Source: a virus. From it: a stretch of 40,612 nt of DNA. The translations under genes were made by a program, and so were the position numbers. The notes under the pieces were generated by a model. It worked only from the letters and a program-made list of their open reading frames with translations, was not told where the DNA came from and made no database searches. The stretch covers positions 1 through 40,612 of IMG/VR virus record IMGVR_UViG_3300007760_000039, one strand, 5' to 3'. Positions 1 to 18,841 of this stretch are shown piece by piece (the first letter of the stretch is position 1; every line of letters begins with the position of its first letter).

Positions 1-119
1 AGCTGTGGAGGGTAGAGGCATGAAGCGTTGGCTAGTGATCGCAGTGATGTGTGTGATGGTGCCCTGGTTGATGGGCGCGGAGCCTTTTCCTCATGCGGCG
101 GGAGGCGGTGGGGCTACGA
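1..119. repeat. Left copy of 119-bp terminal direct repeat (circular seam)
   Basis: Bases 1-119 are identical to 40494-40612. Joining the ends restores an uninterrupted gene order: the stop of the 40104 gene at 40506-40508 equals position 13-15 here, immediately before the ATG at 20. A repeat of exactly 119 bp is what a k=119 de Bruijn assembler leaves on a circular contig, so it is more likely an assembly overlap than a physical terminal repeat. It implies a circular or circularly permuted genome of about 40,493 bp. Confidence 0.95.
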
Positions 120-1228
120 CCTCTAGCGGTGGTGTGACCTATCCAAGCTCTGCGACTGACGACTTTGCGGTAGGTGGTACGGGACCCACCGCGCCCTTTT
201 ACGTGGATGGTGCCGGTAATGTGGACGCTACGTCGTTCGTATCTGCGCGCCACGCGACCGATGGCGGCGCATCGGAGCTATGGAACGGCTTGAATGACGG
301 CAATTTTCGGCTGCGTATGCAGGTGGACAATGCGGGGTTGTTGTCGAATGACGACTGCACGCTAACGGACGCGGGGTGGACGGGTGCAAGTTGTCCATTT
401 GGTACGCAATGGTTCGCGCTGATGAGTCGCTCGGGCGCCCTTACGGGTACCTCGGCGATAAACGCGGATGTGTGGGCACCCTTCAAGATCAAGTACTTCA
501 ATGCGATGAGTTCATCGAGTGCCAATTCGGGGATTACCATCGAGGCGCTCCCCATCTGTGTAGGTGGCACAAACGAGGACGCCGTGTGCCCCAACGGTAA
601 CGCTCAATGCACGGGGGGCGGAACCTGCACGGGCGACGCTGGGATGTTTCGTTTTGCATATGCCGGGACGTATCTATGGGATATGGGGTTTGGCTGGCGA
701 AATACGGATGCCACGATCGAGGGTCAATACAAGGCGTGTAATGCGTCATCGACGAACAGCGGGCAGACGTGCATTCTCGATACCGATTGCCCGGGGGCCG
801 GTGGTGCGTGCAGCGACACGGCTGGGATACGCGCTTGCTTAAAGTATCTCGGATACATCGAGCCGAACAGTGCGGGGACCGGCTCAGTCGATCTGGATTC
901 CGAGGCCGTGCTGGCACCGGCCGGCCAGGATGATTCTGTAACTAGCCAAGTGGTTAATCACGCGGCTCTCAGTTCAGGGGTGCTGACGGTTACGACACCG
1001 CCGCTCGATTTCTACTTCTACGCCGATGACTGTCATCCTGCGAATTATCGCTGTGTCGGGGGGCCGAACGCCGGAAATCAGTGCACTAGCGATACGAATT
1101 GCATTGATCCGAACAATCCGCCTCCTTCGCCCCTGTCGGGTACATGCGAGAGCGATGGCGGCGATGAATTCGACCATGAGATTGTGCATAGGAGCACGCG
1201 CATTCGATGGTTGAAGGTGGCCGACTGA
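20..1228 (+). CDS. Secreted fibre-like protein with three Cys-rich inserts
   Basis: 402 aa from the ATG at 20, which has GGAGGG about 8 bases upstream; an in-frame GTG at 5 is less likely because it would put residues before the signal peptide. Residues 1-20 look like a Sec signal peptide (basic start, hydrophobic core, small residues at 19-20). Residues 41-100 (DDFAVGGTGPTAPFYVDGAG) resemble the start of metagenomic phage tail-fibre proteins. Three Cys-rich segments follow, with Cys at 180/190/197/203, 240/251/257/264 and 345/355/361/376; the second and third carry the D-T-D/N-C signature and all end in a short G/S-rich C. The stop overlaps the sulfatase start (TGATG). It sits where T7-like phages keep the tail fibre, so a receptor-binding or surface role is inferred; a signal peptide is unusual for a fibre. 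The gene crosses the circular seam. Confidence 0.75.
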   Translation: MKRWLVIAVMCVMVPWLMGAEPFPHAAGGGGATTSSGGVTYPSSATDDFAVGGTGPTAPFYVDGAGNVDATSFVSARHATDGGASELWNGLNDGNFRLRMQVDNAGLLSNDDCTLTDAGWTGASCPFGTQWFALMSRSGALTGTSAINADVWAPFKIKYFNAMSSSSANSGITIEALPICVGGTNEDAVCPNGNAQCTGGGTCTGDAGMFRFAYAGTYLWDMGFGWRNTDATIEGQYKACNASSTNSGQTCILDTDCPGAGGACSDTAGIRACLKYLGYIEPNSAGTGSVDLDSEAVLAPAGQDDSVTSQVVNHAALSSGVLTVTTPPLDFYFYADDCHPANYRCVGGPNAGNQCTSDTNCIDPNNPPPSPLSGTCESDGGDEFDHEIVHRSTRIRWLKVAD

Positions 1229-2646
1229 TGCGCGCCCTGATCGTTGCGGCGTTCGTGGCTCTGTGGGTCGCCCCGGCCTACGCCCAGCAGGGGGCGGTGG
1301 TGGGTGCGGGGGCGGCGCAGGGGCGCACGGCGGAGCTGGCGCTCTTGATCGTCACGCTCGACGACTTCGGCAATGTGCACGACAAAAGGTCGGGGAGTAC
1401 CGACTCACGGGCCACGGATCAGGCCACCCCCAATTTCGACACTCTCGACCAGCAAGGCGTGAGATTCTCGGCGGCCTACGTCAACCCGGCTTGCGCCACT
1501 ACGCGCGCTTCGCTCAACCTCGGGCAGCACAATTTTAGGACCGGGGTCTACGGGCCGACAGCGGGCAACCAGTTGGACGACGACACCGACCACAACCTTG
1601 CGAAGCTCGCCAGGGACGTGGGGGGTGCCGAGACTCGCGCCTATGGCAAGTATGGATTAAGCGGGCAGACATACGGCGCATGGGCAAAGGGCGGGATGGG
1701 ATGGAATTACTTCTACGGCTGGCCGGGTGTCGGCCTGGACGGCGGCGGCTATCGAAACTGGACCCTCCAAACGCAAGATCCAGCGGCCTTCGCGGCCGCT
1801 GCTCCGGCCTACACGAGCACCCCGCCCCAGAGTGCAAATCAGTCTGAGTACGTGGACGACGTGATGGTGTCGCAATTGTTGGCGGACTTCAGCACCCGTG
1901 ACAAGACAAGACCCTTTCTCGCACACATCGGCTTAGGCAACACAAGATTCCCCTTCCACGATCCTGGCATGGCGGCACCTGCACAGACATGCGATTTGCC
2001 GCTTGTGAATTACGATTGCGTGGCACTCCAGGTGCAGAAGGCCGACGCGCTGCTCGGCCGTCTGATCGACGAGATTAATTGGTCGCGCACGGTCATGATC
2101 GTCATCGGCGATAACGGCATCGATGGCAAATCCACGCTCTACGAGGACGGCATTCGGGTCCCTGCGTATGCTTACGGCGGGGGGTTGCCCACCGGCACCC
2201 TCAGCGAAACCATGAGCGTCACCGATATCTATATGACTGCTCTGGATCTGATGGGCGTTGCGAGTTACGCCGGGTCAGCCGTCATGGACGGCTATAGTTT
2301 CGCGGACCAGATTGGCTTTGCGTGCGGGCGCACCGATTCGCGCTGCTGGTCAGACCGGACTGGTTACGTGTTTTCCGGAAAGGGTAACGGCGCTCGCGCG
2401 TGGCGAGACACGCTGGGCAGTTACCCCACCTACAAATTGCACCACGAGGGCGGGGCCGGAGGCGGCGCCCAGGAGCTGTATAACCTGAACGGGTATGCCG
2501 GATATGGCAGGGAGGCCACCGACCTATGCGGAGGCAACGGTGATTGCACGAACCTGACGGGAACGGATCTGGCGGCGCACGCCGCTCTGTGCGCGTCACT
2601 CGATGCGTTCGATCCCGGCATGGCGGTATCGTGTAGTGGCCCGTAG
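1228..2646 (+). CDS. Divergent sulfatase (alkaline phosphatase superfamily), Sec-exported
   Basis: 472 aa from the ATG at 1228, which overlaps the upstream stop (TGATG). Residues 1-19 form a signal peptide ending AYA. Sulfatase landmarks follow in order: metal-binding LDDFG (D45, D46), TPNFDTLDQQGVRF (67-80), a formylglycine-type motif CATTR (C89, R93), LGQHNFRTG matching the family LTGRYPHRTG, GKYGLSG (K141) in place of GKWHLG, DNG (D295, N296), K301, YEDGIRVP, and a terminal LYNLNGYAG matching LYDLxxDPxE. The family hydrolyses sulfate esters using a formylglycine made from the C-x-P/A-x-R cysteine. Here the third residue is Thr and two usual catalytic His positions look replaced (GKYG; NTRFPF), so it may be weakly active, of altered specificity, or only a binder. 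It is the last of three signal-peptide genes and precedes the lysis cassette. Confidence 0.8.
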   Translation: MRALIVAAFVALWVAPAYAQQGAVVGAGAAQGRTAELALLIVTLDDFGNVHDKRSGSTDSRATDQATPNFDTLDQQGVRFSAAYVNPACATTRASLNLGQHNFRTGVYGPTAGNQLDDDTDHNLAKLARDVGGAETRAYGKYGLSGQTYGAWAKGGMGWNYFYGWPGVGLDGGGYRNWTLQTQDPAAFAAAAPAYTSTPPQSANQSEYVDDVMVSQLLADFSTRDKTRPFLAHIGLGNTRFPFHDPGMAAPAQTCDLPLVNYDCVALQVQKADALLGRLIDEINWSRTVMIVIGDNGIDGKSTLYEDGIRVPAYAYGGGLPTGTLSETMSVTDIYMTALDLMGVASYAGSAVMDGYSFADQIGFACGRTDSRCWSDRTGYVFSGKGNGARAWRDTLGSYPTYKLHHEGGAGGGAQELYNLNGYAGYGREATDLCGGNGDCTNLTGTDLAAHAALCASLDAFDPGMAVSCSGP

Positions 2647-2654: not shown

Positions 2655-2990
2655 GTGAGCAATGAGAAGATGGCCCTCGTTGAGTGGATATCCGCTGTCA
2701 CCGTTACCGCGGTGGCTGCCACCCTCGTGGGAATATCTCGCTGGGCTGCGGTGCTAGCGGGGAGGATGACCGTGGCTGAAGAGAAGATCGAGCAATGCGA
2801 GCGGCAGCATGAGAGTCGCGCAGACCCGATCTATCAGACTCAGCGTCGAGTGGATGGGCTCGACCGAGAGGTGGAGCATCTGGCTGATCGGGTGGACCGA
2901 CACGAAGAGAAGTTGGATGCGATCAGCAACGGCGTGAACGAGTTGCTTAGGCGTATTCCGATGGATGGAAACGGGCGTGCGCGCTCGTGA
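2655..2990 (+). CDS. Membrane-anchored coiled-coil protein of the lysis region
   Basis: 111 aa from a GTG at 2655; an in-frame ATG at 2670 is an alternative. One predicted transmembrane segment (about residues 10-35, A/V/T-rich) is followed by a charged heptad-like region (R-V-D-G-L-D-R-E-V-E-H-L-A-D-R-V, about 62-100) typical of a coiled coil. The arrangement, short N-terminus, single TM, then periplasmic or cytoplasmic coiled coil, is seen in small phage membrane proteins encoded next to holins and spanins. It opens the lysis cassette just after the sulfatase. Its exact role (holin accessory, anti-holin or structural) cannot be told from sequence. Confidence 0.65.
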   Translation: MSNEKMALVEWISAVTVTAVAATLVGISRWAAVLAGRMTVAEEKIEQCERQHESRADPIYQTQRRVDGLDREVEHLADRVDRHEEKLDAISNGVNELLRRIPMDGNGRARS

Positions 2991-3153
2991 GGGTGTCTCG
3001 TATCTCGCTGCGGTGGCGGGTGCGGTGGCTGCTCTTACTGGACTCATCGAGTCATGGCACGCGATAGAAGATCGCGACGCGATCGACGCTAGCAAGGTGG
3101 CTTTCCTCGATGAGTTGGTGAGGTGCAGGGTGGAACTGGAAGGGACGCGATGA
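2965..3153 (+). CDS. Small single-TM protein of the lysis region
   Basis: 62 aa. The ATG at 2965 overlaps the end of the previous gene by 26 nt; a GTG at 2977 is also in frame. A hydrophobic stretch (SYLAAVAGAVAALTGLI, about residues 12-28) could span the membrane, followed by an amphipathic acidic/basic tail. The stop overlaps the start of the M15-like gene (ATGA), so the two are translationally coupled. Candidate antiholin or holin partner by position only; I do not recognise a named family. Confidence 0.55.
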   Translation: METGVRAREGVSYLAAVAGAVAALTGLIESWHAIEDRDAIDASKVAFLDELVRCRVELEGTR

Positions 3154-3461
3154 GTCTTGCGATCAAGCCGGGTGTCTCGATCCAGGGGCTTCGGCCCGAG
3201 ATGGTTCTGGCGCTCGTAGTCTGCGCGGGAGTCTACGCGGAGCGCGGCAAGGTATGCACGCTCACTTCTGGACTGGAGGGGGCGCATGGCAGGGCGTCCC
3301 TCCACTACACCGGGGGAGCTGTCGATCTTCGCACACGAGATCTGACACCGACTGAGGTGGGGGAAGTGGCAGGGGAGCTAGCTGAGCGACTAGGCAATGA
3401 CTTCGACGTGGTGGTAGAACACACGCACATCCACGTCGAGTTCCAACCGAAAGGGAGATGA
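3150..3461 (+). CDS. M15-like (D-Ala-D-Ala/L-Ala-D-Glu) zinc endopeptidase
   Basis: 103 aa from the ATG at 3150, overlapping the upstream stop (ATGA). The motif SLHYTGGAVDLR (51-61) supplies H52 and D59, and EHTHIHVEF (90-98) supplies E90 and H95. This is the H-x6-D ... H-x-H layout of the small peptidase M15/DD-peptidase fold, which cuts peptide cross-links in peptidoglycan. It lacks a binding domain and a signal peptide, so it would need the adjacent holin for access to the periplasm. Its place between membrane proteins and the holin supports a role in host lysis. A second muramidase (35068) is encoded in the virion block, so this is the better candidate for the lysis endolysin. Confidence 0.8.
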   Translation: MSLAIKPGVSIQGLRPEMVLALVVCAGVYAERGKVCTLTSGLEGAHGRASLHYTGGAVDLRTRDLTPTEVGEVAGELAERLGNDFDVVVEHTHIHVEFQPKGR

Positions 3462-4379: not shown

Positions 4380-5144
4380 TCAGAAGTCAGGGGCATCGTC
4401 TCGAGGTTTCCAGTCGTTGATCTTGGGCGCGAGTTCTGCAAGGAGCTTCTTCGGGGCCATGGCCAGGTCGCGCATTGTTGCTCCTCTCCACGGCGTGTCG
4501 GCGAGAAGCTCGGAGAGCAGGTTCTCTACCTTGATGCCTTTGACGCTGAGTTCTACCAGTCGGAGCTCGGCCATCTCGTAGATACGGGCGAGGGTGGCGC
4601 GATCCATGAGTTCGTTACCGTCAGCATCGACTCGCATGCCACAGACTGGCGATGCATCGTAGATCGCGTCGGCGAGAATCTGCAGTAGCTTGGGGCGCTC
4701 GGCTTCGGCAATCACTGTGCTGCGGCCTTTGCGGGTGAGTTGGACCCAAGGGCTTGATAGCCGGTAGAGGTACCGGCCGACGCCCCATTGTACCGCGGCG
4801 CGCTTTTGTGAGTCCGAGGCTGCAGCCTTGACGCCCTCCATCTGTGCTTCACCAGCGGCATCGCTCTTCCAGACCCAGTGGTCGTCGAGGCGGACGCCGA
4901 TGTGGCAGACTGCCATCACCTGCTCGGCCCGTTGATGGAACTCGTGTCGGCATTGCCAAGCGTTTTGTCCGAGTACGAGGTCGAAGCGATCCATGACGTC
5001 GCGAGCGTCTAGGTACGCAAGCGCGAGGCCTCGCTCGGGCTGACCGCCACTGTTTTTGCTGGTGACGCCGATTCGCCAGTGGACGGCCTTGGGGGGGAAG
5101 GGTGCGGCGAGGCGTGCGAGTTTGATTGCAGTCGTGCTGTTCAC
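4380..5144 (-). CDS. Rad52/Sak-family single-strand annealing protein
   Basis: 254 aa from a GTG at 5144 with GAGGAG seven bases upstream; an upstream ATG at 5234 would cross the regulatory gap and lacks a ribosome site. The N-terminal two thirds match the Rad52/Rad22 (Sak) fold: KLARLAAPFPPKAVHWRIG, ALAYLDARDVMDRFD, VCHIGVRLDDHWVWKSDAAGE and KRAAVQWGVGRYLYRL are typical conserved blocks. These proteins form rings that anneal complementary ssDNA in phage recombination and in priming of recombination-dependent replication. It is transcribed leftward, divergent from the Cro-like gene, and stands apart from the phage SSB (15180) with which it should cooperate. Confidence 0.85.
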   Translation of the reverse strand: MNSTTAIKLARLAAPFPPKAVHWRIGVTSKNSGGQPERGLALAYLDARDVMDRFDLVLGQNAWQCRHEFHQRAEQVMAVCHIGVRLDDHWVWKSDAAGEAQMEGVKAAASDSQKRAAVQWGVGRYLYRLSSPWVQLTRKGRSTVIAEAERPKLLQILADAIYDASPVCGMRVDADGNELMDRATLARIYEMAELRLVELSVKGIKVENLLSELLADTPWRGATMRDLAMAPKKLLAELAPKINDWKPRDDAPDF

Positions 5145-5232
5145 TGTCTTCTCCTCAAAAGGCAGGTGATGGGGCTTGGTGAGTGTTGTGGTTTTCGGTG
5201 GCGCAAGTGTAGCCCAGGTGTATACTGTAGAC
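5145..5232. promoter_or_regulatory. Divergent control region between the annealing protein and Cro-like genes
   Basis: 88 bp separate two divergent starts. On the + strand a good -10 hexamer, TATACT (5221-5226), lies just 6 bases before the ATG at 5233, with no ribosome site between, which suggests a leaderless transcript for the regulator. TGTAG occurs twice (about 5209 and 5226), 17 bp apart, and GTATAC is palindromic: plausible operator half-sites. No convincing -35 is visible. On the - strand the GTG at 5144 has a good ribosome site, but no clear promoter hexamers. Confidence 0.5.
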
Positions 5233-5520
5233 ATGCCGTATCAAGAGAAGAATCCGTTGATCCGCTGGTGCAGAGATGAAGGCATCACCCAAAGAGTGGG
5301 TGCCGCACGATTGGGCACTAAGTACGTGACCTTCCGTAAGCAGTGCGCAGGGATGCGCGGAGTTTCTTGGGAGACTGCTTACCGGTACAGCGAGCGGTCG
5401 CGTGGGGTGCTTCGGCCGGAGGAGTTGATGGCGTTCTTCTCATTCATTCGAGGGGAGAAGAGGTGCCGGACCGGCGGATCAAGGAGCAAATCAATAGCTC
5501 GGAAAGTCTCAGCCACGTAA
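5233..5520 (+). CDS. Cro/YdaS-like helix-turn-helix regulator
   Basis: 95 aa from the ATG at 5233. The first 60 residues (NPLIRWCRDEGITQRVGAARL, VTFRKQCAGMRGVSWETAYRYSERSRGVLRPEEL) resemble small one-domain HTH proteins of the Cro/YdaS type, in which a helix with A-A-x-L is followed by a recognition helix and by residues that read host/phage operators. The tail is basic and partly shaped by overlap with the next gene. Its divergence from the annealing protein and apparent leaderless start suggest an autoregulated genetic switch, with the XRE gene at 18435 as the second regulator. Confidence 0.65.
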   Translation: MPYQEKNPLIRWCRDEGITQRVGAARLGTKYVTFRKQCAGMRGVSWETAYRYSERSRGVLRPEELMAFFSFIRGEKRCRTGGSRSKSIARKVSAT

Positions 5521-10045: not shown

Positions 10046-10357
10046 TTATGAGGGTTTGCTAGACGGGATCACCCGGTATTCCCAGGTGCCTCCCTTGCCG
10101 CGGCGACGGCGTTCCACTGTGTGTCCTCCGAAGCGGGGCTTGCGGAAGTCGCGGAGTCGAGCGCTCACGCTAGCCTCAGGGCAGCCGCTGGCGTGTGCGA
10201 GCTCGAACAGTGTGCGCCAGTGTCCGTCGCTCATGACTCGCCAGACCTTGGCGTGTTGGCCTTTGAGTCTGTGGGCGTCGAGATGAGGGTCGTAGGTGTC
10301 GCCGTCGAAGCGCAGTATCTCAACAAGGGCTCCGAACAGGTCTCGTTGGTCGTTCAT
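10046..10357 (-). CDS. Winged-helix protein downstream of the methylase
   Basis: 103 aa from the ATG at 10357, which overlaps the methylase stop (ATGA). Residues 33-85 form a typical winged helix: KVWRVMSDGHWRTLFELA, SGCPEASVSARLRDFRK (recognition helix with S-V-S-A-R-L-R-D-L/F) and a basic wing (VERRRRGKGGTWEYRV). Such small phage proteins are often encoded beside replication or modification genes and probably bind DNA. Coupling to the methylase suggests shared timing rather than proven shared function. Confidence 0.65.
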   Translation of the reverse strand: MNDQRDLFGALVEILRFDGDTYDPHLDAHRLKGQHAKVWRVMSDGHWRTLFELAHASGCPEASVSARLRDFRKPRFGGHTVERRRRGKGGTWEYRVIPSSKPS

Positions 10358-11745
10358 TCGAATAACTCCCCTTGGACCTTGTTGGCGGGGATGATGTCGA
10401 GATTGGGCGCATGTCTGCCGATGGCTGCGCCGACTAAGGCTGCAGCCTGCATCGGGCTGACGCTGTTGCCGCAAAGGCGGATCTGTTCTGTTTGGGTGAA
10501 GCGGTTGCCGTAGAGATCGCGGTCGATGATGTAGTTGGAAGGGAAGCCTTGCGCAGCGTACAGTTCGTGAGGCTTGAGCATTCGCATGCCGATGTCGTGT
10601 ACGGCATATTGAGCCCCCTTGATCGTGACGAGACCGAAGCGGGCCTTGGTAGTCACAGTGTGAAGAGGTGAGGAGAGGGGCTGGTGTTGTCCCCCGGCGC
10701 TGTAGTACTTCGTAAGGAAGGCGGCGACGAGGGAATGATGGTCCTTGGCCGTTACTGTTCCAAGCGGTCTTCTGACCTCATGTCCAACGACGCCGCCGTA
10801 ATGCTTGGCGATGAAGGCTGCGACGAGGGCGTGTTTGCTCCCGCCTGCGACAACTGTTCCGAGTGGCTTTTGCAGTCCGGGGACTCGAGGAGTCTGGCCT
10901 GGACGTTCCCCGTAGCCAGTCTGTATGAGTGTAGGAATGGCTTGTTGCTCGCCTATGGAGCAGATGAAGGGGTTGTCTGTAGTGAAGACGTAGCGACGCA
11001 TGCCTTCGGCAATACGCGCCATCGTCTTCTCGGCGAGTGGCTTGGAGCGGGAGAATATCGATGGGGTGGGTAGGCTCCAGTCGATGATCTCGGAGGATGT
11101 GCGCCAGGGTCGGTTAGTGGAGCTGCCGTGAGTGGGTGCTGGCCAGACCAGGGGGTGGCCGTCACGGCGGGCCAGCATGAAGAGGCGCTTCCGTGTGGTG
11201 GGGGCTCCGTAGTCGGCTGCGGTGAGAACGCGGATTTCGAGGGTGTAACCGAGAGAGCGGAGCTGGGCGCACCATTCCCGAAAGGTCTCGCCAGTACGCT
11301 CGGGGATGGGGAGGTTATCCGTGTCCAGGGGTCCCCATTTCTGGATCTCTTCGACGTTCTCGACGGCGATGATTTCGGGGCGGACGGAGGCTGCCCAGCG
11401 GGTGACGACCCACATGAGGTCGCGGATTTTCTGGTCTCTGGGCTTACCGCCTTTGGCTCTTGAGAAGTTGGTGCAGTCGGGGGAGAACCAGGCGAGGCCG
11501 ACAGGCTTGGAGCCGCAGACTGCGCGGGGGTCAATTGAGAGGATATCGTTCCTCAGGTGGCGCGTGCCGGGATGATTGGCCTTGTGCATTTCGATGGCCG
11601 CTTCGTCGTGGTTGATCGCGATGTCGCAGGGTCGGCCGATGGCGGCTTCGATTCCTGTGGAAGCGCCGCCGCCGCCTGCGAAATTGTCTACGACGAGTTT
11701 GCCCGGCATGGCGAACTCGATCTGTATTTGGGGACTACGCGTCAT
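10354..11745 (-). CDS. C5 cytosine DNA methyltransferase (SPDC subtype)
   Basis: 463 aa from the ATG at 11745 (GAGGA five bases upstream). Motif I FAGGGGAS (22-29) binds AdoMet, motif IV is SPDCTNFSRAKGG with catalytic C91, motif VI is ENVEEI (129-134), and the C-terminal CGNSVSP (about 425-431) is motif IX/X. The usual PC dipeptide of motif IV is replaced by DC, a variant I associate with a phage-rich branch of the family. A variable target-recognition region lies between about 200 and 400, including a repeated G-G-V-V / S-A-G-G pattern with A-F-x-x-K-Y/H. It would methylate phage DNA against host restriction. It overlaps the DUF2800 gene by 11 nt. Confidence 0.9.
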   Translation of the reverse strand: MTRSPQIQIEFAMPGKLVVDNFAGGGGASTGIEAAIGRPCDIAINHDEAAIEMHKANHPGTRHLRNDILSIDPRAVCGSKPVGLAWFSPDCTNFSRAKGGKPRDQKIRDLMWVVTRWAASVRPEIIAVENVEEIQKWGPLDTDNLPIPERTGETFREWCAQLRSLGYTLEIRVLTAADYGAPTTRKRLFMLARRDGHPLVWPAPTHGSSTNRPWRTSSEIIDWSLPTPSIFSRSKPLAEKTMARIAEGMRRYVFTTDNPFICSIGEQQAIPTLIQTGYGERPGQTPRVPGLQKPLGTVVAGGSKHALVAAFIAKHYGGVVGHEVRRPLGTVTAKDHHSLVAAFLTKYYSAGGQHQPLSSPLHTVTTKARFGLVTIKGAQYAVHDIGMRMLKPHELYAAQGFPSNYIIDRDLYGNRFTQTEQIRLCGNSVSPMQAAALVGAAIGRHAPNLDIIPANKVQGELFE

Positions 11746-13018
11746 CTGAATCCTCGGCGGCAGTGGATATGGGGACGATCTTGCGGCGGCCTTCGGAGCG
11801 GGTGACTGCTTCGTCGGAGACTCGGACGAGCTTGAGGGACTCGCCGCTCTTGGTCCTTGCTGCCTTCTCCATCTGTGGAACAGATTTGAGGGTCGGCTGC
11901 GTCATAGATTCGGTTTCGCTGAGATCCCATTGCTGTGCGTAGGCAAGGGCGTGTTCTTCGCTCTTCCATTTCCGGTCGCCGGGCTTGCCATCGCGGATGG
12001 TGAATGTGTGGAGCAGTGAATCGCCTGCGGGCACTGTGTCTTCGAGCATCATGTGGTCAGTGTGCTGCTTGACTCGCTTGATCCAGAGTTCGAGGAAGGG
12101 TACGAGGCGGCGACGATCGCCCCAGTCAGTGAGTTTTGAGGGCATGGGCCAAAGTTCCTGTTCTGTGCTGTTGATGATCTCGTCGGAGAGGTCGGTCACT
12201 GCAGAGGCGACGTGCGTCTCGGAGTAGGCGGGGCAGAGAGATACTGCGGGGCACCAGCGACATTGGTTATGCGGGTCGGGGTTGAAGGAGAGGTTTTCTC
12301 CTCGTTCTGTGTCGAGGATTGTTTGGGTGACCTGCTCGGAGTACTCAAGGAGATATTCTGTGGTTAGTTCGATGTGGTCGTCGATATCGCGGGCGGGCTG
12401 GATGATGCCTGCGTTGACGGATGTGATGGAGGTGAGGCCCGCGAGTTCTGTACGCAGGTTGAGGTACGCGGCAGCTGCGTAGATGTAGAGTTGGCTGTTG
12501 CCTGCGGCGTAGACGGGTTGGCCCTTGCCTGCCTTGAGGTCACGCACGTAGAGGATTTGGGCATTGGGGTCAAAGGAGATGAAGTCGCTCGTGCCGTAGC
12601 AGTAGGTGTGCAGCGTGACCCTTTGCTCGCAGTAGTAATCGAGGCCAGGGAGTGCGCGGAGCGCTTCTATGTAGGTGCGGACGATATCGGCGAGATCCTC
12701 GTCGATGGGTATGTCGGTCGTAGGGCATACGTAATCGGTGAGATTCCAGAGCGAGAGGTCGCCTGCGAGTACGGCCTCCGCGGCGGAGTGTGCAGCTGTG
12801 CCCCGTGCCGCTTCGAGGCTGGGCGGGGGGTCGGGTGGAAGGGTAGAAGTGGGAAGAGCGAAGGGGAGCCCGGTGGCCTGGTCGATGCGGAAGAGGGACA
12901 GCTGGCGCTCAACGGGGTCAGTCTGTCGGAGTGCTTCGATAAAAGGTGTGGAGGCGGTGCAATTCATCCAGCGTACGGAGGCGGAGGGTGCGTACTTGGC
13001 GCGGTGATCTGTGGGCAT
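11735..13018 (-). CDS. DUF2800 / Cas4-RecB-like PD-(D/E)XK nuclease
   Basis: 427 aa from the ATG at 13018 (GGAG eight bases upstream). N-terminal SASVRWMNCTAS and GTAAHSAAE (E81) are standard DUF2800 blocks. The nuclease core is visible as YGTSDFISFD (D145), VRDLKAGKG (D160-x-K162) and QLYIYA. CRWCPAVSLC (C252, C255, C261), with an upstream Cys, resembles the iron-sulfur site of Cas4/AddB nucleases. These proteins are common in phage recombination modules and probably resect DNA ends to feed the annealing protein. A long hairpin precedes the gene. Confidence 0.85.
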   Translation of the reverse strand: MPTDHRAKYAPSASVRWMNCTASTPFIEALRQTDPVERQLSLFRIDQATGLPFALPTSTLPPDPPPSLEAARGTAAHSAAEAVLAGDLSLWNLTDYVCPTTDIPIDEDLADIVRTYIEALRALPGLDYYCEQRVTLHTYCYGTSDFISFDPNAQILYVRDLKAGKGQPVYAAGNSQLYIYAAAAYLNLRTELAGLTSITSVNAGIIQPARDIDDHIELTTEYLLEYSEQVTQTILDTERGENLSFNPDPHNQCRWCPAVSLCPAYSETHVASAVTDLSDEIINSTEQELWPMPSKLTDWGDRRRLVPFLELWIKRVKQHTDHMMLEDTVPAGDSLLHTFTIRDGKPGDRKWKSEEHALAYAQQWDLSETESMTQPTLKSVPQMEKAARTKSGESLKLVRVSDEAVTRSEGRRKIVPISTAAEDSDDA

Positions 13019-13123: not shown

Positions 13124-14281
13124 TTAGGGAGCCACCTGCTGGAGTTCTGTCCAGTCGTGAGAGGTCAGTGCGATGACCCGAGCTCCGGCTTCTTGGAGCT
13201 GGATGTTGCGGTCGTAGCTGGATGTGGAGTGGGCCAGGGAGGTCACCGCGTTGGCGAGGCCCCACTTGGTGAAGTCGCCACCTCGGGCGAGGGACTGCAG
13301 GAGTTCAGAGCCTTCCGTCTGCGTCAGTTCGAGCTTCTTTGTGGTGCGTGCGCAGACGTCTTCGATAGAGCCAGTGATCTCCAGTCCTGCTGCTGCTTGG
13401 AGTTGATCTACGGTTTTGTGGAACTGCACACCTTCGGTCATGTATCCGTGAACGACATCGTTGACTTGAGCGAAGAGTGCTGCGTCGCGCAATTCCTGGG
13501 TTTCGGACTTCAGGTAGTGGCTGACGTCTTCGTCGAGCTTGGCCTCGCCTCCGACGTGCGCTTTGCGGAGTAGGCTGCTGGAGACCATGCCGTTCTTGCA
13601 GACTTCTCTGTAGAGCCATTGCTGTACGGAGAAGGTGCCATCTCCTACCTCACTGTTCTTCACGATGATGCCGCCCTGGATAGGATCGTCTTCGGTGACG
13701 TCTCTCTTGAGGTGAGGGCTGAGGGCGCAGAGATAGAAGTGAGAGTCGGTGACGTTGCAAGTCTTCACCTGGAGACCCTCGCGGTCGAAGGTCTCCAGAA
13801 GAGCGTTGGCCACATCGAGGTTGTCGATGAGTCGGTAGCGGTTGGAGAGGAGGGCGCGAACCTTTCCGTCGAGCGTGCGGACGAGGTGGTCTTTGTCGCT
13901 CGAGTACAGCCAGTGGTTGACGTTTTCGACGAGAAGGGCGGGTGCTTCCTGCTCGCAGCGCTGGTAGTACTTGCGGGGGATGCCGCAGCGATCCGCGAGC
14001 TGTCTGTGTGCAAAAGGCGTGATGGGGTATGGGCTCGTGTGATCTAGGCCGAGGTGGAGTGAGAGGGCGGATCGGTCTGCATCGATTTGCTGCTCGATGT
14101 CATGTCCCCAGTGTTCTACTGCGTCGGAGCTGTTGTCCGCGAGCTTTACTCCCTCGTTGGGCTCGCAAGACGAGGGATGGATGAGTGCGAGATTGTGGGA
14201 GGGGACGATGTAATCGCTCTTGGCCTTGGCTTGGCGAAGGAGTTCCTGCACTGTCTCCTGAAGGTTGGTTTCGGTGGTCAT
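13124..14281 (-). CDS. DUF932 phage/plasmid-type protein
   Basis: 385 aa from the ATG at 14281, with AAGGAA seven bases upstream. Family blocks: FAHRQLADRCGIPRKYYQRC, VNHWLYSSDKDHLVRTLDGKVRALLSNRYRLIDNLDV (split over about 120-160), then SFYLCALSPHL-like and WLYREVCKNGMV. DUF932 proteins are common on large phages and plasmids; their function is not established, though links to DNA replication or anti-defence have been suggested. The gene is preceded by a 54-bp gap without the strong hairpin seen before other genes of this operon. Confidence 0.8.
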   Translation of the reverse strand: MTTETNLQETVQELLRQAKAKSDYIVPSHNLALIHPSSCEPNEGVKLADNSSDAVEHWGHDIEQQIDADRSALSLHLGLDHTSPYPITPFAHRQLADRCGIPRKYYQRCEQEAPALLVENVNHWLYSSDKDHLVRTLDGKVRALLSNRYRLIDNLDVANALLETFDREGLQVKTCNVTDSHFYLCALSPHLKRDVTEDDPIQGGIIVKNSEVGDGTFSVQQWLYREVCKNGMVSSSLLRKAHVGGEAKLDEDVSHYLKSETQELRDAALFAQVNDVVHGYMTEGVQFHKTVDQLQAAAGLEITGSIEDVCARTTKKLELTQTEGSELLQSLARGGDFTKWGLANAVTSLAHSTSSYDRNIQLQEAGARVIALTSHDWTELQQVAP

Positions 14282-14335
14282 AAGTACGTTCCTTTATGGT
14301 GTGGGAGGTTCGGGCATTGCGGGGAATGGGAGAGG

Positions 14336-14659
14336 CTATCGGTCGAGGGTGTAGAGGCGGTCCATCATGTCTGCGAGGCATGACCAGTGGCACCAGGCTC
14401 CGGGGTCAGCTACGGGCTCGATGCGATCGACGTCTCGACCGATCTCGTCGCCTGGATGTATGCGTTGCTCGCAGAGCATGCACTCCCAGCTTTCCCAGGT
14501 CAGATCAAGCCGGAGCATTTCTGCGTGTTCGGTCTCTCGTCGGGCAATGGCGTGTTCGCCGTATACCTCGCTAGTGGGTCGGATGTAATCGCCCGGAGTG
14601 TCGGAAGGGTCGAGATTGAGTCGCTCATATTGGCGCTCGAGATCTGAGAAGCGACGCAC
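14336..14659 (-). CDS. Zinc-finger hypothetical protein with a duplicated start region
   Basis: 107 aa from a GTG at 14659 preceded by AAGGGG, six bases away. The open frame extends upstream to a TTG at 14767 through two further 45-bp repeats, giving a possible 143-aa form; I prefer the GTG because only there is a ribosome site present. CMLCEQRIHPGDE (C-x2-C) and a later CHWSC form a likely treble-clef zinc site similar to PARP-type or LIM-like fingers. The remainder is charged and helical. Function unknown. Confidence 0.6.
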   Translation of the reverse strand: MRRFSDLERQYERLNLDPSDTPGDYIRPTSEVYGEHAIARRETEHAEMLRLDLTWESWECMLCEQRIHPGDEIGRDVDRIEPVADPGAWCHWSCLADMMDRLYTLDR

Positions 14660-14775
14660 GTTTGACCCCTTGTTCGAGTGGTAGGCGAATGAGAAGCGAA
14701 GAACGTCGTAGCTCTTGTTCCAGTGGCAGGCAAATGAGAAGCGACGTACGTGTGAGCTGTTGTTCAAGTTGCAGG
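14641..14775 (-). repeat. Three tandem 45-bp repeats over a translation start
   Basis: Units at 14641-14685, 14686-14730 and 14731-14775. On the - strand each unit holds CCTNCNACT, GAACAA, then AC-GT and CGCTTCTCA at the same offsets. Forty-five bases equals 15 codons, so copy number change keeps the frame. The unit nearest the gene is the only one with both a good ribosome site (AAGGGG) and a GTG; the other two have drifted. Confidence 0.85.
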
Positions 14776-15096
14776 TGAACCGGTTGCTGTGTCTTCGCCT
14801 TGCGTGGGATCGGGGTCACTCTCGCGCAGGGCGGTTTCGATGTGAGCGTGGAGTTCTTCGAGCTGGTCTTGGGTGAGGAAGTGATGGACCCGGAAGCTCG
14901 GGAGGCGGAGGCTGACTGGGTCGATGCTCAGCTCGAGGACGAACTGAGCTTCTCGGTTCTTCAGGGGTCGGATGTACTGTCGTGTGGAGGCGTACAGGTG
15001 GAAGACGTCGATAGTCGTCTCTGTCGGGCCGGAAGGGTTGATGTCAGCGACCAGTGCTCGGTTGTAGCGGTCGAATTGGTGCAATCGAATGCTCAT
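14764..15096 (-). CDS. Hypothetical protein downstream of ssb
   Basis: 110 aa from the ATG at 15096, with AAGGAA five bases upstream. The first 80 residues alternate short beta-type strands (FVLELSIDPVSLRLPSFRV) and the end is helical and acidic (DQLEELHAHIETALRESDPD). I recognise no family. It sits between ssb and the zinc-finger gene. Its last bases form part of the first 45-bp repeat (stop at 14764-14766), so the repeat array has grown over the gene boundary. Confidence 0.55.
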   Translation of the reverse strand: MSIRLHQFDRYNRALVADINPSGPTETTIDVFHLYASTRQYIRPLKNREAQFVLELSIDPVSLRLPSFRVHHFLTQDQLEELHAHIETALRESDPDPTQGEDTATGSPAT

Positions 15097-15120
15097 TGAG
15101 TTTCCTTAATGACGGAGAAG

Positions 15121-15158
15121 GGCTGTCTCCCCCTCTGTGCGAGCAGGGGGAGACAGCC
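15121..15158. promoter_or_regulatory. Perfect 14-bp hairpin between ssb and the next gene
   Basis: Arms 15121-15134 and 15145-15158 are perfectly complementary (GGCTGTCTCCCCCT), with a 10-nt loop. It lies 22 bases after the ssb stop on the transcribed strand and before the AAGGAA of the next gene. There is no adjacent U-tract, so processing, stabilisation or attenuation is more likely than simple termination. Confidence 0.8.
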
Positions 15159-15179
15159 TGGTGAGAGCGCGGCGGTGGC

Positions 15180-15587
15180 CTAGAAGGGCGGCTCCTCGAA
15201 GCTCGACTCGTCTGCGGGTGCGGCGTCGGTGGAGCCGTTGGAATTCCCGTTGGAGCGTGAGCTGAGGAAGGTGAGGCCACCGGGGCGGACCTGAACGTCG
15301 GAGGAGTAACGCTCGATGTTGTCCTTGTCGGTGTACTTGCGGTAGTGCATCTCGCCCTCCACGTAGACCAGGGAGCCCTTGTTGAGATACTGCGCAGCGA
15401 CCTCGGCCTGCTTGCCCCAGACGGTGATGCGGTGCCAGTCCACGGTGGGCTTTTCTTCGCCTTCCTTCTTGAAGCGCTCCGTGGCGAGGGAGAAGTTCGC
15501 GACGGAGGTGCTGTTGGCGGTGTGGCGAAGCTCGGGGTCGCGGCCCAGTCGGCCGATGAGGGTGATCTTGTTGACGGTGCCAGGCAT
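15180..15587 (-). CDS. ssb: Single-stranded DNA-binding protein
   Basis: 135 aa from the ATG at 15587 (GGAG nine bases upstream). The OB fold is clear: NKITLIGRLGRDPELRHTAN (6-25), SVANFSLATERF, WHRITVWGKQAEVAAQYLNKGSLVYVEGEM and a short Gly/Ser/Asn linker. The C-terminus ends ESSFEEPPF, an acidic tip of the kind that recruits partner proteins in bacterial SSB (DDDIPF). It protects ssDNA during replication and recombination and should partner the annealing protein, the resolvase and the replication protein. Confidence 0.95.
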   Translation of the reverse strand: MPGTVNKITLIGRLGRDPELRHTANSTSVANFSLATERFKKEGEEKPTVDWHRITVWGKQAEVAAQYLNKGSLVYVEGEMHYRKYTDKDNIERYSSDVQVRPGGLTFLSSRSNGNSNGSTDAAPADESSFEEPPF

Positions 15588-15682
15588 GGTGTTGCTCCTT
15601 TGTTGCGTAGTTGAATTGGGGCGTTGGCCGGCCCCGTAAGGGGTGGCAGGCCATAGCCCTGATTGGACGGGACAGGGTATAT

Positions 15683-15967
15683 CTAGAAGGGTTCGTCTGA
15701 GGGTATGTCTTTCGTATGGTTTTCCCTTTCTTCGTCGTCGGTTTCGTGGACTAGCGAGTCAAGCGTGGCCAGTGCGTCCATGAGGACGGTGATGCCATTG
15801 CGGATGTGGAGATCTTCGATGGCGCGGCAGGTGTCGCAGTCGGGGCAGTCGCGGCAGTCGCGGCAGTCTTGGCAGAGCTGTTGCTGTTTGGGTTCGGGCG
15901 GTGTGAGGGGTGTGCCGCAGCCGTAGCAGTAGTACCCGTCGTTGGTCTTGTCACTGAGCTTGCCCAT
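15683..15967 (-). CDS. Cys-rich protein with an SSB-tip-like C-terminus
   Basis: 94 aa from the ATG at 15967 (GAGGAG upstream). CYGCG starts a zinc site, and a run of alternating Cys (CQDCRDCRDCPDCDTC, 32-47) gives six closely spaced Cys in a C-x2-C ladder. A helical part follows (AIEDLHIRNGITVLMDALATL), then an acidic tail ending DIPSDEPF. The last eight residues resemble the conserved acidic tip of SSB proteins, and the phage ssb is the next gene. I infer possible docking on SSB-binding surfaces. No family recognised. Confidence 0.6.
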   Translation of the reverse strand: MGKLSDKTNDGYYCYGCGTPLTPPEPKQQQLCQDCRDCRDCPDCDTCRAIEDLHIRNGITVLMDALATLDSLVHETDDEERENHTKDIPSDEPF

Positions 15968-15981
15968 TTACTTCTCCTCTT

Positions 15982-16036
15982 GAGAATTTCCGTCATCGAT
16001 CCCCCGGCTCGGCGGGGATCGATGACGGAAGTTCTC
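15982..16036. promoter_or_regulatory. 23-bp hairpin overlapping the end of the RadC-like gene
   Basis: Arms 15982-16004 and 16014-16036 pair over 23 positions with one non-Watson-Crick position; the inner 17 bp are perfect (TTCCGTCATCGATCCCC). The loop is 9 nt. The stop of the RadC-like gene (15993-15995) lies inside the left arm and the ribosome site of the next gene lies just beyond, so the two genes are separated only by this structure. Confidence 0.85.
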
Positions 16037-16484
16037 CGCTCTCCTGGGCGCTGTAGTAGGACTTGTGTGCGCCGAGGATGAGGGAGTCGAGAATCCGTAT
16101 GCCGAGGATGGCTCCGGCCCTCGAGAGGCGCTTGACGACTTCTCGGTCTTCGGACGAGGGTTGTGGATCTCCCGAAGGGTGGTTGTGCCCGATGATGATG
16201 CCGCATGCGCCGATGTGGACGGCGGGTTGGAAGATCTCTCGAGGGTGGACGAGGCTGGCAGTGGCGGTGCCGATGGAGACGATGGCGTGAGCGATGTAGC
16301 GATTGCGCGCGTCGAGGTAGATGGCGCAGAAGTGTTCCCGGCTGTTGTCTCCGACCAGCGAACGCAGGAGTGCAGCTGCGTTGTCTGGGTCGGAGATTTT
16401 ATGGAGTGTCACGCCTGGGTCGGGCGGGTGTGTGTAACTGACGCGGGCCTCGCGTATGCGAAGGCCGTCTGTATGCTGAGTCAC
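15993..16484 (-). CDS. RadC-like JAB-domain protein
   Basis: 163 aa from the ATG at 16484, close after a GGAG-like site. The JAB metalloprotease signature is intact: E50 in REHFCAIYLDARNRYI, then GHNHPSGDPQPSSED (H100, H102, D106 region). It corresponds to the C-terminal domain of RadC, without the N-terminal helix-hairpin-helix, which is the usual form on phages and plasmids. JAB enzymes are zinc peptidases; the substrate of phage RadC proteins is unknown, and anti-restriction or recombination roles have been proposed. Three 22-bp iterons lie upstream. Confidence 0.85.
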   Translation of the reverse strand: MTQHTDGLRIREARVSYTHPPDPGVTLHKISDPDNAAALLRSLVGDNSREHFCAIYLDARNRYIAHAIVSIGTATASLVHPREIFQPAVHIGACGIIIGHNHPSGDPQPSSEDREVVKRLSRAGAILGIRILDSLILGAHKSYYSAQESGELPSSIPAEPGDR

Positions 16485-16514
16485 AGGGAACTCCTGTTGT
16501 CGTGTAAAGGGAAA

Positions 16515-16580
16515 GGGCTAGGTCAGTCCACCCGTTGGGCTAGGTCAGGCAACCCGTGGGTCTTGGTCAATCGACCCGGG
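16515..16580. repeat. Three 22-bp iterons
   Basis: Units at 16515-16536, 16537-16558 and 16559-16580, head to tail without spacers. The conserved parts are GGGCTAGGTCA at the left (third unit GGTCTTGGTCA) and ACCCG at the right, with 4-5 variable bases between. A 22-bp period places the binding face on the same side of the helix, as in replication iterons and operator arrays. They lie between the RadC-like gene and the hairpin at 16632. Confidence 0.8.
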
Positions 16581-16631
16581 GGGTGTAAGCAAAAAAGTGG
16601 TGGTGGTTGCGCGTTTGCGGGTCTGCCGTGG

Positions 16632-16665
16632 CGTTGCCGCCCCCCGGTTAGGAGGGGCGGCAACG
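16632..16665. promoter_or_regulatory. GC-rich hairpin downstream of the 16673 gene
   Basis: Perfect 12-bp arms (CGTTGCCGCCCC, 16632-16643 and 16654-16665) with a 10-nt loop, plus a further CTGCC/GGCAG pair outside it. It begins a few bases after the stop at 16673. Transcribed leftward, its loop ends in CCGG as in the 13035 hairpin. A run of T in the - strand (from AAAAAA at about 16593) lies about 40 bases downstream, too far for a standard terminator. Confidence 0.75.
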
Positions 16666-16672
16666 GGCAGGG

Positions 16673-17332
16673 CTAGGCCCGCTCGCGGTAGCGGCGAACG
16701 GGTCCGGGCTGGGGCGCGTCGGGTCGTGCTGCGGCGGGCGACCAGAAGATGAACGGGGCCGTGGGTCTGGTGCGGCTGTTGAGAACCTCGCGGGCTCGTT
16801 GTTCGCGTGCCTCGCGGTACAACTCTTCGTGAGGCTCACAGACGGCGGAGGCGCGCATGTGGTCGCGGTACTGATCGTAGCTAGCGAAGAGGTTGGGAGC
16901 GTTGTCCAGCATGCGTTTCGCATACTCGGGGTCGTCCGTGAGCTGTGTGCGGCGCTCCCATTGGTGGAGAGTTTCGTACACATGCTGCTCCGCGTCCCGT
17001 GCTGCGTCCCGTGATATGCGGTCCATCTCCTGTTCTTCGTAGCGGTCGGCGAGGCACTCGACGCACACGTCGGCTACCCGATCGCGGGTTGTGGCGGGCT
17101 CTCCGCATCGTGAGCACGATGCCGTGTGGAACCCTCCGTCGCTCGTGGTGGCGTCGTCAGTGGGGGTGACGGCTATCTCGGACATGGCTGCGCTGTACGA
17201 GAAGTGGGGGTTCACGTTGTAGAGGACTTCGTAGGTGATTTCGTCGGGGTGGAGCGTGCTGGTCCGCTGTTCGAACCAAGTGCCGTCGTCTGTCTGGAAC
17301 ACGTTCTTCGGGCGGTCGTGATTCTTCTGCAT
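16673..17332 (-). CDS. Hypothetical protein with a zinc ribbon
   Basis: 219 aa from the ATG at 17332, with AGGAG eight bases upstream. CSRCGEPATTRDRVADVCVECL (split over about 73-94) is a C-x2-C ... C-x2-C ribbon. Around it are an N-terminal TDDGTWFEQRT segment and a long charged helical part (RDAARDAEQHVYETLHQWERRT, about 108-130). The C-terminus is basic and Pro/Arg-rich. No family recognised. It is the second gene of the leftward operon and shares an almost identical leader (AGGA-A/G-A-C/T-TACGAA-ATG) with the first. Confidence 0.6.
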   Translation of the reverse strand: MQKNHDRPKNVFQTDDGTWFEQRTSTLHPDEITYEVLYNVNPHFSYSAAMSEIAVTPTDDATTSDGGFHTASCSRCGEPATTRDRVADVCVECLADRYEEQEMDRISRDAARDAEQHVYETLHQWERRTQLTDDPEYAKRMLDNAPNLFASYDQYRDHMRASAVCEPHEELYREAREQRAREVLNSRTRPTAPFIFWSPAAARPDAPQPGPVRRYRERA

Positions 17333-17360
17333 TTCGTAATCTCCTGTGAGTTGCGTAATG

Positions 17361-17409
17361 GGAAGCGGGGCCGCTCCCCCCGGTATGGCGGGGGAGCGGC
17401 GTCGCTTCC
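17361..17409. promoter_or_regulatory. Two-step hairpin before the 16673 gene
   Basis: Inner arms of 10 bp (CCGCTCCCCC, 17371-17380 with 17390-17399) and a 9-nt loop, and outer arms GGAAGCG/CGCTTCC (17361-17367 with 17403-17409), separated by short internal loops. It lies between the stop at 17428 and the leader of the next gene. The loop again has ACCG on the transcribed strand. No U-tract follows. Confidence 0.8.
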
Positions 17410-17427
17410 GTGTAGGTAGGGATCAAA

Positions 17428-17625
17428 CTACTTCCCGTGGTAACGGCACAGCATTTCCCAAGCATGGCGGTACTGGGCGGCATAGAAGTCTGCTTCTGCC
17501 TCGTTAAGATCGTGACCCCAATGCACGTCCCCGGACTCCGGATGAGCGTGGTAATCACTCTTCGCTTCGATCCACGCTCGGTGCGCGAGGATTACTCGAT
17601 CATCGAACTTGACTGCATGAGACAT
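17428..17625 (-). CDS. First gene of the leftward operon, hypothetical
   Basis: 65 aa from the ATG at 17625, with AGGAA eight bases upstream. The protein is short, acidic and rich in His/Trp/Tyr: VILAHRAWIEAKSDYHAHPE, VHWGHDLNEAEADFYAAQYRHAWE. It looks like a single helical bundle. No family recognised. It is the promoter-proximal gene of the early leftward operon, in the position where phages often encode small host-takeover or anti-defence proteins; that is inference from place and size only. Confidence 0.6.
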   Translation of the reverse strand: MSHAVKFDDRVILAHRAWIEAKSDYHAHPESGDVHWGHDLNEAEADFYAAQYRHAWEMLCRYHGK

Positions 17626-17721
17626 TTCGTAGTTTCCTTTCGGTTACGTAATGAAGTCGCCTGTCGCGGGCACGCGCCCACGCGGCGAACTTCCAAGCGC
17701 ACAGCCACGACGGCTTTTCGT

Positions 17722-17750
17722 GCAAACAAGGCAATAGCACGCTGAGTCAA
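17722..17750 (-). promoter_or_regulatory. Weak candidate promoter of the leftward operon
   Basis: On the - strand TTGACT (17745-17750) is a good -35 match and is followed after 17 bases by GTTTGC (17722-17727), a poor -10. It lies downstream of all four leftward terminators and about 100 bp before the ATG at 17625. The position fits an operon promoter; the -10 does not fit sigma70 well. Confidence 0.3.
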
Positions 17751-17783
17751 CCCCACGAGTCGCATGCCGCAGGCAGGAGACAC

Positions 17784-17811
17784 AAAAAAAAAGTGTGCGG
17801 CGAAGCCGCAC
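17784..17811 (-). terminator. Leftward intrinsic terminator, copy 1
   Basis: Stem GTGCGGC/GCCGCAC with a 3-nt loop (17795-17811), followed on the - strand by nine T residues (17784-17792 read in reverse). This is the strongest of four copies and the last one met before the leftward operon. Confidence 0.8.
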
Positions 17812-17857
17812 GTGCATTATCAGCGGGTTTACCAGTGTGCTACAGGCAGGAGACGGT

Positions 17858-17883
17858 GAAAAGAGTGTGCGGCGAAGCCGCAC
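17858..17883 (-). terminator. Leftward terminator, copy 2
   Basis: The same 17-nt stem-loop (17867-17883) followed on the - strand by ACTCTTTTC. It shares 26 bp with copy 1, from GTGTGCGG to GTGCATT, and a CAGGCAGGAGAC block precedes both on the + strand, so the pair arose by duplication of about 72 bp. Confidence 0.7.
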
Positions 17884-17955
17884 GTGCATTTAACACTTTC
17901 TTGAGTCTCATGCCGCGTCGATAAACCAGTTGCTAAGCAAGTAGCAAGAGCGGTT

Positions 17956-17997
17956 ATTTTCGCAGGGGATGTTCGGAACGAACATTCGTGCGAAAAT
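17956..17997. repeat. 42-bp interrupted palindrome
   Basis: ATTTTCGCA (17956-17964) pairs with TGCGAAAAT (17989-17997), and ATGTTCG (17969-17975) pairs with CGAACAT (17979-17985) around a GAA centre. The two halves are offset by 4 and 3 unpaired bases. It could bind a dimeric regulator (16 bp inside, 9 bp outside) or fold in ssDNA. It lies between terminator copies 2 and 3. Confidence 0.75.
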
Positions 17998-18098
17998 GAT
18001 CGCGGAGGTGGCACTGGGACAGAAATCAGGATCCTCCGGGCATCGGTTGCAGAATGCCGCGGAATGAGGTCTTAAAAAAAGTCGTCCGCAGTCGGGTA

Positions 18099-18123
18099 GA
18101 AAGAGTGTGCGGCGGAGCCGCAC
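18099..18123 (-). terminator. Leftward terminator, copy 3
   Basis: Stem GTGCGGC/GCCGCAC with loop GGA on the + strand (18107-18123), followed on the - strand by ACTCTTTCT. The U-tract is interrupted, so termination may be partial. Confidence 0.6.
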
Positions 18124-18172
18124 GATCAGTGTGCGGACGTACACTACCGCGGAAGGCTGCATCCGAGGTTTT

Positions 18173-18198
18173 GAAAAAGATGTGCGGCTTCGCCGCAC
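18173..18198 (-). terminator. Leftward terminator, copy 4
   Basis: Stem GTGCGGC/GCCGCAC (18182-18198), loop TTC on the + strand, opposite to copies 1-2. On the - strand it is followed by ATCTTTTTC. Transcripts from the XRE gene would meet this copy first. Confidence 0.65.
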
Positions 18199-18241
18199 AA
18201 GCAATACCGGAATCCGTCGCTTGGCATAGGCCTAGCCGTAC

Positions 18242-18302
18242 TATGGGCGGCGAGCGCCAGCCGCCCAGAGTGCGTATGGGCGGCGAGCGCCAGCCGCCCA
18301 GA
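18242..18302. repeat. Two direct 28-bp repeats, each a hairpin
   Basis: Identical units at 18242-18269 and 18275-18302, a 33-bp period (about three helical turns). Each holds TGGGCGGC and GCCGCCCA arms around an 8-nt loop. REP-like or protein-binding sites are possible; no U-tract follows in either direction. Confidence 0.8.
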
Positions 18303-18329
18303 CGCAGGCCCGACGACTACCCGTGCGAA

Positions 18330-18375
18330 GTGAGGCGGAGGCGCTCTGCGCCGGAGCCTCACGACACGCGTCGTG
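18330..18375. repeat. Two adjacent hairpins beside the XRE gene
   Basis: The first (18330-18362) has GTGAGGC/GCCTCAC and GGCGC/GCGCC stems with GGA facing GGA in a symmetric internal loop and a TCT apex. The second (18360-18375) has CACGAC/GTCGTG arms around four bases. ACTACCCGTGCG followed by AAGTGAGGC or TAGTGAGGC occurs both at about 18316 and 18394, so this block is itself a diverged duplication. Confidence 0.7.
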
Positions 18376-18434
18376 CTTGAGTTACAGACACCCACTACCC
18401 GTGCGTAGTGAGGCTCGTGTGGCGGGTAGAGATA

Positions 18435-18737: not shown

Positions 18738-18802
18738 ACTGAGGAGAGGTAGGGGATGCTGACCGACGTGGCCAGTGGTTAGCTTCGGCCACGAGGAGTT
18801 CG

Positions 18803-18839: not shown

Positions 18840-18841
18840 GC

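Follow-up and report, generated by a model that had tools for sequence, protein, structure and literature searches.

A divergent sulfatase homologue with a predicted export signal and two replaced active-site histidines among the late genes of a T7-like phage

The window, that is, the whole stretch of DNA analyzed here, is the complete virus record IMGVR_UViG_3300007760_000039 (40,612 bp). Its two ends carry an identical direct terminal repeat of 119 bp, indicating that the genome is complete and circular in the assembly (40.5 kb), and the sulfatase-like gene described below is phage-encoded, as the original prediction had proposed. The record is that of a T7-like phage, with a T7-like gene set comprising a terminase, the phrog_332 adaptor, the phrog_3437 capsid protein, the phrog_376 tail protein and the phrog_342 internal virion protein. 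The region spanning the circular junction is organized as follows:

1-119 and 40494-40612, no strand: identical direct terminal repeat, by sequence comparison
35660-40093, plus strand: internal virion protein (phrog_16310, 1.1e-86; phrog_342, 2.7e-58), last gene of the structural operon, ahead of the exported cassette
40104-40508, plus strand: 134-aa protein with a predicted signal peptide (heuristic scan; no Pfam match), placed next by reading over the circular junction
20-1228, plus strand: 402-aa Cys-rich protein with a predicted signal peptide (heuristic scan; no Pfam or PHROG match), at the position of the T7-like tail fibre gene
1228-2646, plus strand: sulfatase-like gene encoding P0001, 472 aa, frame intact by translation
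1228-1284, plus strand: predicted Sec signal peptide of P0001, MRALIVAAFVALWVAPAYA, with cleavage between AYA and Q (heuristic scan and sequence)
1345-2259, plus strand: PF00884 Sulfatase domain of P0001, residues 40-344 (Pfam, protein and DNA searches)
2655-2990, plus strand: 111-aa protein whose N-terminal segment is hydrophobic and which contains a coiled coil, possibly spanin- or lysis-like (weak)
3123-3461, plus strand: candidate M15-peptidase-like endolysin (HH_signal, 22.6 bits against a cut-off of 22.1)

A small hydrophobic ORF follows the M15-like peptidase, and we take these two genes and the coiled-coil membrane-type protein, partly by inference, to be the lysis genes. The gene order therefore runs from the internal virion protein through two exported genes and the sulfatase to the lysis-type genes, which agrees with the late-operon setting originally proposed. 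The heuristic scan of the 49 genes found signal peptides in the products of only three, and these three are consecutive, an adjacency expected by chance in about 0.3% of cases (simple arithmetic). The 402-aa neighbour contains Cys-rich repeats of the type CVGG..G..C...C. Neither a tRNA nor an Rfam match that could point to the host was obtained in the phage genome, nor did it contain a gene of the formylglycine-generating enzyme (FGE) type (PF03781).

The start codon of P0001, ATG at 1228, overlaps the TGA stop (1226-1228) of the preceding ORF in the junction TGATG, and a Shine-Dalgarno-like GAAGGTGG lies ahead of it at 1213-1220. An upstream ATG at 1207 is a possible alternative; we prefer ATG 1228 because of the overlap and the preceding GAAGGTGG. 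From this start, the N-terminus is predicted to be a textbook Sec signal peptide, MRALIVAAFVALWVAPAYA followed by QQG with an AXA-type site, a call that rests on the heuristic scan together with a reading of the sequence and that upholds the export signal of the original prediction. Codon usage of the gene is phage-like (0.122, against 0.10 for the terminase and 0.13 for the portal), and its GC content matches that of the phage genome.

By sequence and by fold, P0001 belongs to PF00884. The Pfam profile is matched with 73.7 bits (E=2.1e-20; cut-off 25 bits) from position 4 to position 301 of 301, and a repeat search on the DNA gave E=8.2e-23; the match lies far beyond chance, and the HMM search upheld the claim of a full-length sulfatase-family protein. 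All solved structures matched by sequence are sulfatases, the best being 7aj0. AlphaFold2, supplied with an alignment that included 57 cellular relatives, returned a model with pLDDT 79 and pTM 0.85; run on P0001 with no alignment, it gave a pLDDT of only 33 and a model of no use. With the former model, Foldseek matched 427 PDB chains at E<=0.001 (best E 8.6e-19), and all of the top 50 were S1 sulfatases. The predicted structure thus has an alkaline-phosphatase-type sulfatase fold, where a lack of this fold would have spoken against the original assignment. The best PDB matches by sequence and fold are the fucoidan sulfatase PsFucS1 (7aj0) and the S1_19 carrageenan sulfatase ZgCgsA (9hh2), bacterial polysaccharide-desulfating enzymes with about 20% identity to P0001.

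We compared the active site of P0001 with those of 119 aligned cellular sulfatases (ASA and PAS mark the numbering of reference enzymes). The relevant positions, all on the plus strand, are:

1360-1365, plus strand: metal ligands D45-D46, kept; invariant column in the 119 relatives
1492-1506, plus strand: formylglycine motif C89-A-T-T-R93, with Thr at C+2; C and R invariant
1648-1650, plus strand: formylglycine-binding Lys, K141 (ASA K123), kept, by alignment with the 119 relatives
1654-1656, plus strand: G143 (codon GGA), replacing ASA His125, by alignment
1945-1947, plus strand: R240 (codon AGA), replacing ASA His229 / PAS His211, by alignment
2110-2115, plus strand: metal ligands D295-N296, kept, by alignment with the 119 relatives
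2116-2130, plus strand: shortened active-site loop G297-K301, by alignment, with the sulfate-binding Lys K301 (ASA K302) kept

Eight catalytic residues (D45, D46, C89, R93, K141, D295, N296 and K301) are therefore kept, in columns that are invariant or nearly so, and every motif named in the original prediction was found at the expected residue. In the alignment, C89, DD and DN stand in sulfatase register, so this check of the original assignment did not refute it either. The altered active site that it described stood in one part and fell in another. Two catalytic histidines are indeed replaced. The position of ASA His125, which is Gly143 in P0001, holds His in 96 of the 119 relatives, while about 23 have another residue, mostly Gln, Gly or Asn; in the clade of P0001, described below, it is His in 14 of 14. 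The position of ASA His229, Arg240 in P0001, is His in 119/119. The Thr at C+2, which had been singled out as a key alteration, was rejected as such: Thr91 does fall outside the published S1 consensus (Pro/Ala), but Thr occurs at this position in five of the 119, including the clade members L225, L227 and L229 (clade motifs CSTTR/CTTTR), as well as in a viral sulfatase (L259), and is thus ordinary. In its place, the loop before K301 counts as a third departure, with four residues ahead of the Lys against 6-28 in the relatives, the shortest seen. Hence, as aligned, the real departures of P0001 are three: His125 (ASA) to Gly143, His229 (ASA) to Arg240, and the short loop. No His codon is a single step away from AGA or GGA, and a lone sequencing error at R240 or G143 was rejected for this reason.

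The His at the 211/229 position is present in 99% of 4,058 S1 sequences, with mainly Lys instead in ten (SulfAtlas authors, PMC5066984), and His181/211/229 is listed as sulfate-binding and the likely acid in a sulfamidase paper (PMC4014121); according to a review, the catalytic acid is a conserved Lys or His (PMC10154612). At the other position, one insect sulfatase was abolished by the replacement H125N (PMC6823443). A related enzyme is BcPMH, a phosphonate monoester hydrolase that is a formylglycine enzyme of the same superfamily, in which the His125 position is changed to Thr107 (PMC4014121 Table 2); in it the His229 equivalent (His218) is retained and Lys123 has become Tyr, the opposite of P0001. 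None of the five published S1 signature patterns matches P0001, and likewise none matches 2/120 relatives or the viral L259. Because the defining His229 feature fails, we do not file P0001 as a functional S1 sulfatase; it is a divergent sulfatase homologue.

A FastTree phylogeny of P0001 with cellular sulfatases (332 alignment columns) nests it, with support of 1.0, in a clade with 14 sulfatases from Verrucomicrobiota-side and Pseudomonadota samples, within which the branching is poorly resolved. Its branch is long (1.96, or about two substitutions per site), and its identity to clade members is 21-30%. The nearest relative (L232, E=4.8e-24) is 33% identical over 361 residues of local match and 30% over the whole alignment. 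The searches brought up no close relative that shares its active-site changes. P0001 shares with this clade of formylglycine-dependent S1 sulfatases (PF00884, SulfAtlas S1; L232-L236, L225, L227, L229) the common fold, the metal ligands, both Lys residues, the Cys/Arg motif (CSTTR/CSPTR) and the PFH[DN]P segment. It differs in the two replaced His residues, the loss of N38 and Y134, the shortened loop and the lack of long extra domains. P0001 keeps 20 of 23 near-invariant family columns, and every clade member keeps at least 22. That these 20 columns and all eight catalytic residues persist on so long a branch suggests that selection still acts on the metal and nucleophile centre.

Genuine sulfatases of phages are very rare, in line with the rarity originally noted; the examples checked in phage records were mislabelled bacterial DNA. 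Against 50,697 phage records P0001 had one match, a Bacteroides-type sulfatase/GH2 stretch in MT835799, and two canonical sulfatase queries matched 33 and 32 records. As phage sulfatases, MT835799 was rejected as a Bacteroides-type polysaccharide locus and Campylobacter phage A11a (MG065691) as an enterobacterial-looking stretch; the matches in Salmonella and Acinetobacter phage records, judged by name and annotation only, look like bacterial assemblies and were not accepted. Both MG065691 (79121-87978, L196) and MT835799 (L017) are marked UNVERIFIED, and each holds apparent bacterial chromosomal DNA including sulfatase genes. Among BFVD viral structures, matches at E<=0.001 came from giant viruses of eukaryotes only, with none in tailed phages, and PHROGs holds one unnamed sulfatase family (phrog_19870). 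In the literature searched, which was not exhaustive, we found no characterised phage sulfatase; sulfatases are mentioned there only as entries in lists of virome genes (PMC11077953, PMC10029852).

When P0001 was the sole query, pattern scans of viral contigs and genome contigs gave no relative, and the alignment queries A1, A2 and A3 had no match in viral contigs. A scan with the internal virion protein likewise had no match. The clade-specific alignment query A4 identified four IMG/VR records with PF00884 domains (L259-L262), none of which has the exported cassette of P0001. L259 is free-standing, with CSTTR, GKWHL and AAHEPFH, and retains both the GKWH motif and the second His; L260 is sulfamidase-like, lies beside sugar-nucleotide-type genes, and keeps the second His with the first absent. 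In the other two, the sulfatase domain is part of a large tail-module protein, whereas P0001 is free-standing. L262 (5094-10274) encodes a 1727-aa protein with a C-terminal sulfatase domain, adjoining a baseplate wedge gene; residues 1-932 correspond to a conserved tail-module protein and share 39% identity with an 891-aa protein of the L261 record, which ends exactly at that point. In L261 (7161-9590), another protein of that tail module bears the sulfatase domain. The two domains are 36% identical, and both keep CSPTR, GKWH, PH.P and the two histidines. These two related viral contigs (L262/L261, IMG/VR 3300006736_000116 and 3300029319_000461) carry canonical sulfatase domains in or beside baseplate or tail-module proteins, which are possibly a little-known class of virion enzyme. 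These viral sulfatases are the best support for a surface-polymer role of phage sulfatases, but for P0001 the support is indirect. The roles originally proposed for P0001, to strip or bind sulfated polymers or to block competing phages, have only this indirect backing.

Taken together, these observations lead us to propose, tentatively and at somewhat less than an even chance, that a secreted S1-type sulfatase of bacterial origin was taken up by a T7-like phage into a late exported cassette at its tail-fibre/lysis position, where, with altered or weakened catalysis, it acts on or binds anionic surface polymers around the time of lysis. The homology, the fold, the operon position, the intact frame, the retained metal ligands, nucleophile Cys, Arg93 and both Lys residues, and the loss of both active-site histidines can be read from the sequence directly. 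In our model, P0001 would be made late in infection, exported by Sec and freed at lysis; its predicted export and its place beside the lysis genes point to a late action, either periplasmic or extracellular. Maturation of Cys89, if it occurs, would depend on a formylglycine-generating enzyme of the host, because the phage has no FGE-type gene. The targets of P0001 would then be sulfated or other anionic polymers, on the host surface or in debris, and its action on them would help progeny phages to escape or to find new cells. The loss of the His pair and the short loop suggest that sulfate-ester turnover is weakened, altered or absent. Replacement of the proton-donating His by Arg has probably weakened turnover or shifted it to substrates with better leaving groups; K301 would be the only remaining candidate acid, and Arg240 may serve as an extra anion-binding group. 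Judged from its residues, P0001 rather likely retains some catalysis. This reading is favoured by the domain and fold, the well-supported clade placement, the retained family columns, the operon integration (the stop/start overlap, the phage-like codon usage and the complete circular genome), the three tandem signal-peptide genes, the tail-module sulfatase domains of other phages and the Lys or His named as acid in the review. The lost 99%-conserved His, the H125N precedent, the unmatched S1 patterns, the missing phage FGE, the Thr outside the consensus and the lack of any close relative found with the same variant site count against it.

Since the metal site and nucleophile are kept and two conserved His residues are lost, P0001 may strip sulfated surface polymers or only bind them. 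If catalysis is lost altogether, the exported fold, still with its metal, would serve as a lectin-like module that recognizes sulfated polymers, such as an adhesin or a receptor-masking decoy on infected cells or debris. The replacement of both active-site histidines, one of them almost never lost, the shortest loop seen and the exported, Cys-rich, fibre-like neighbour fit such a protein; the eight other catalytic residues kept on a very long branch, including the Cys and Arg that are needed for catalysis alone, do not, and we consider it unlikely, if still a serious contender. It is distinctly improbable that P0001 is instead a component of the virion, along with the 402-aa neighbour, and acts there on a sulfated receptor at adsorption, in the manner of tailspike capsule depolymerases. 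The tail-fibre position in a T7-like operon, and the sulfatase domains fused to or beside baseplate and tail proteins in two other viral records, are what one would expect of a tail enzyme, but the signal peptide would take P0001 out of the cytoplasm, where virions are assembled, and in the fused viral sulfatases, which lie within virion-type proteins, both His are retained. Phage capsule depolymerases (tailspikes) would share with P0001 the purpose of processing surface polysaccharide; they have no sequence relation to it, have other folds and are virion-bound, whereas P0001 is predicted to be exported.

We give little credence to a captured host sulfatase that is merely a passenger or is decaying, with no role in infection. 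The long branch would suit it, as would the absence of a sulfatase domain from 11 terminase relatives and 42 capsid relatives (0/53, most of them fragments). The intact frame, the translational coupling suggested by the overlap with the gene before it and the phage-like codon usage argue against decay, as do the retained invariant columns and two replacement codons that no single sequencing slip explains. Least credible of all, and already largely refuted, is bacterial DNA joined to a phage contig, an origin that phage-labelled sulfatase records can have (MT835799 and phage A11a look bacterial) and that is contradicted here by a gene inside a circular 40.5-kb genome, with a one-base overlap with its neighbour and GC and codon usage that match the phage.

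With the capture of a secreted sulfatase as our preferred reading, we suggest, with slightly more reserve than for that reading itself, that tailed phages use the sulfatase fold on surface polymers in two ways: as a domain of baseplate or tail proteins, and, in P0001, as a Sec-exported late protein whose site has moved away from the standard sulfatase acid (His to Arg) and whose activity is either an ester-hydrolase chemistry of a new kind or the recognition of sulfate by a pseudo-enzyme. Sulfated polymers are widespread in nature, yet hardly any phage enzymes that target them are known. With a complete phage genome that encodes a sulfatase homologue predicted to be exported, and with the tail-module domains elsewhere, it becomes directly testable whether phages process sulfated surfaces; the His-to-Arg site would also shed light on the limits of drift in the sulfatase mechanism.

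Two further observations concern the phage and its kin. Its minus strand carries genes for a Rad52-like annealing protein, a DUF2800 PD-(D/E)XK exonuclease and a C-5 cytosine methylase (4380-5234, 11735-13018, 10354-11745). Tandem late genes with Sec-type signal peptides recur beside tail or lysis genes in several uncultured T7-like phages (G029, 26170-28135; G024, 968-2969; G037, 14241-19526), and the proteins that they encode are unrelated.
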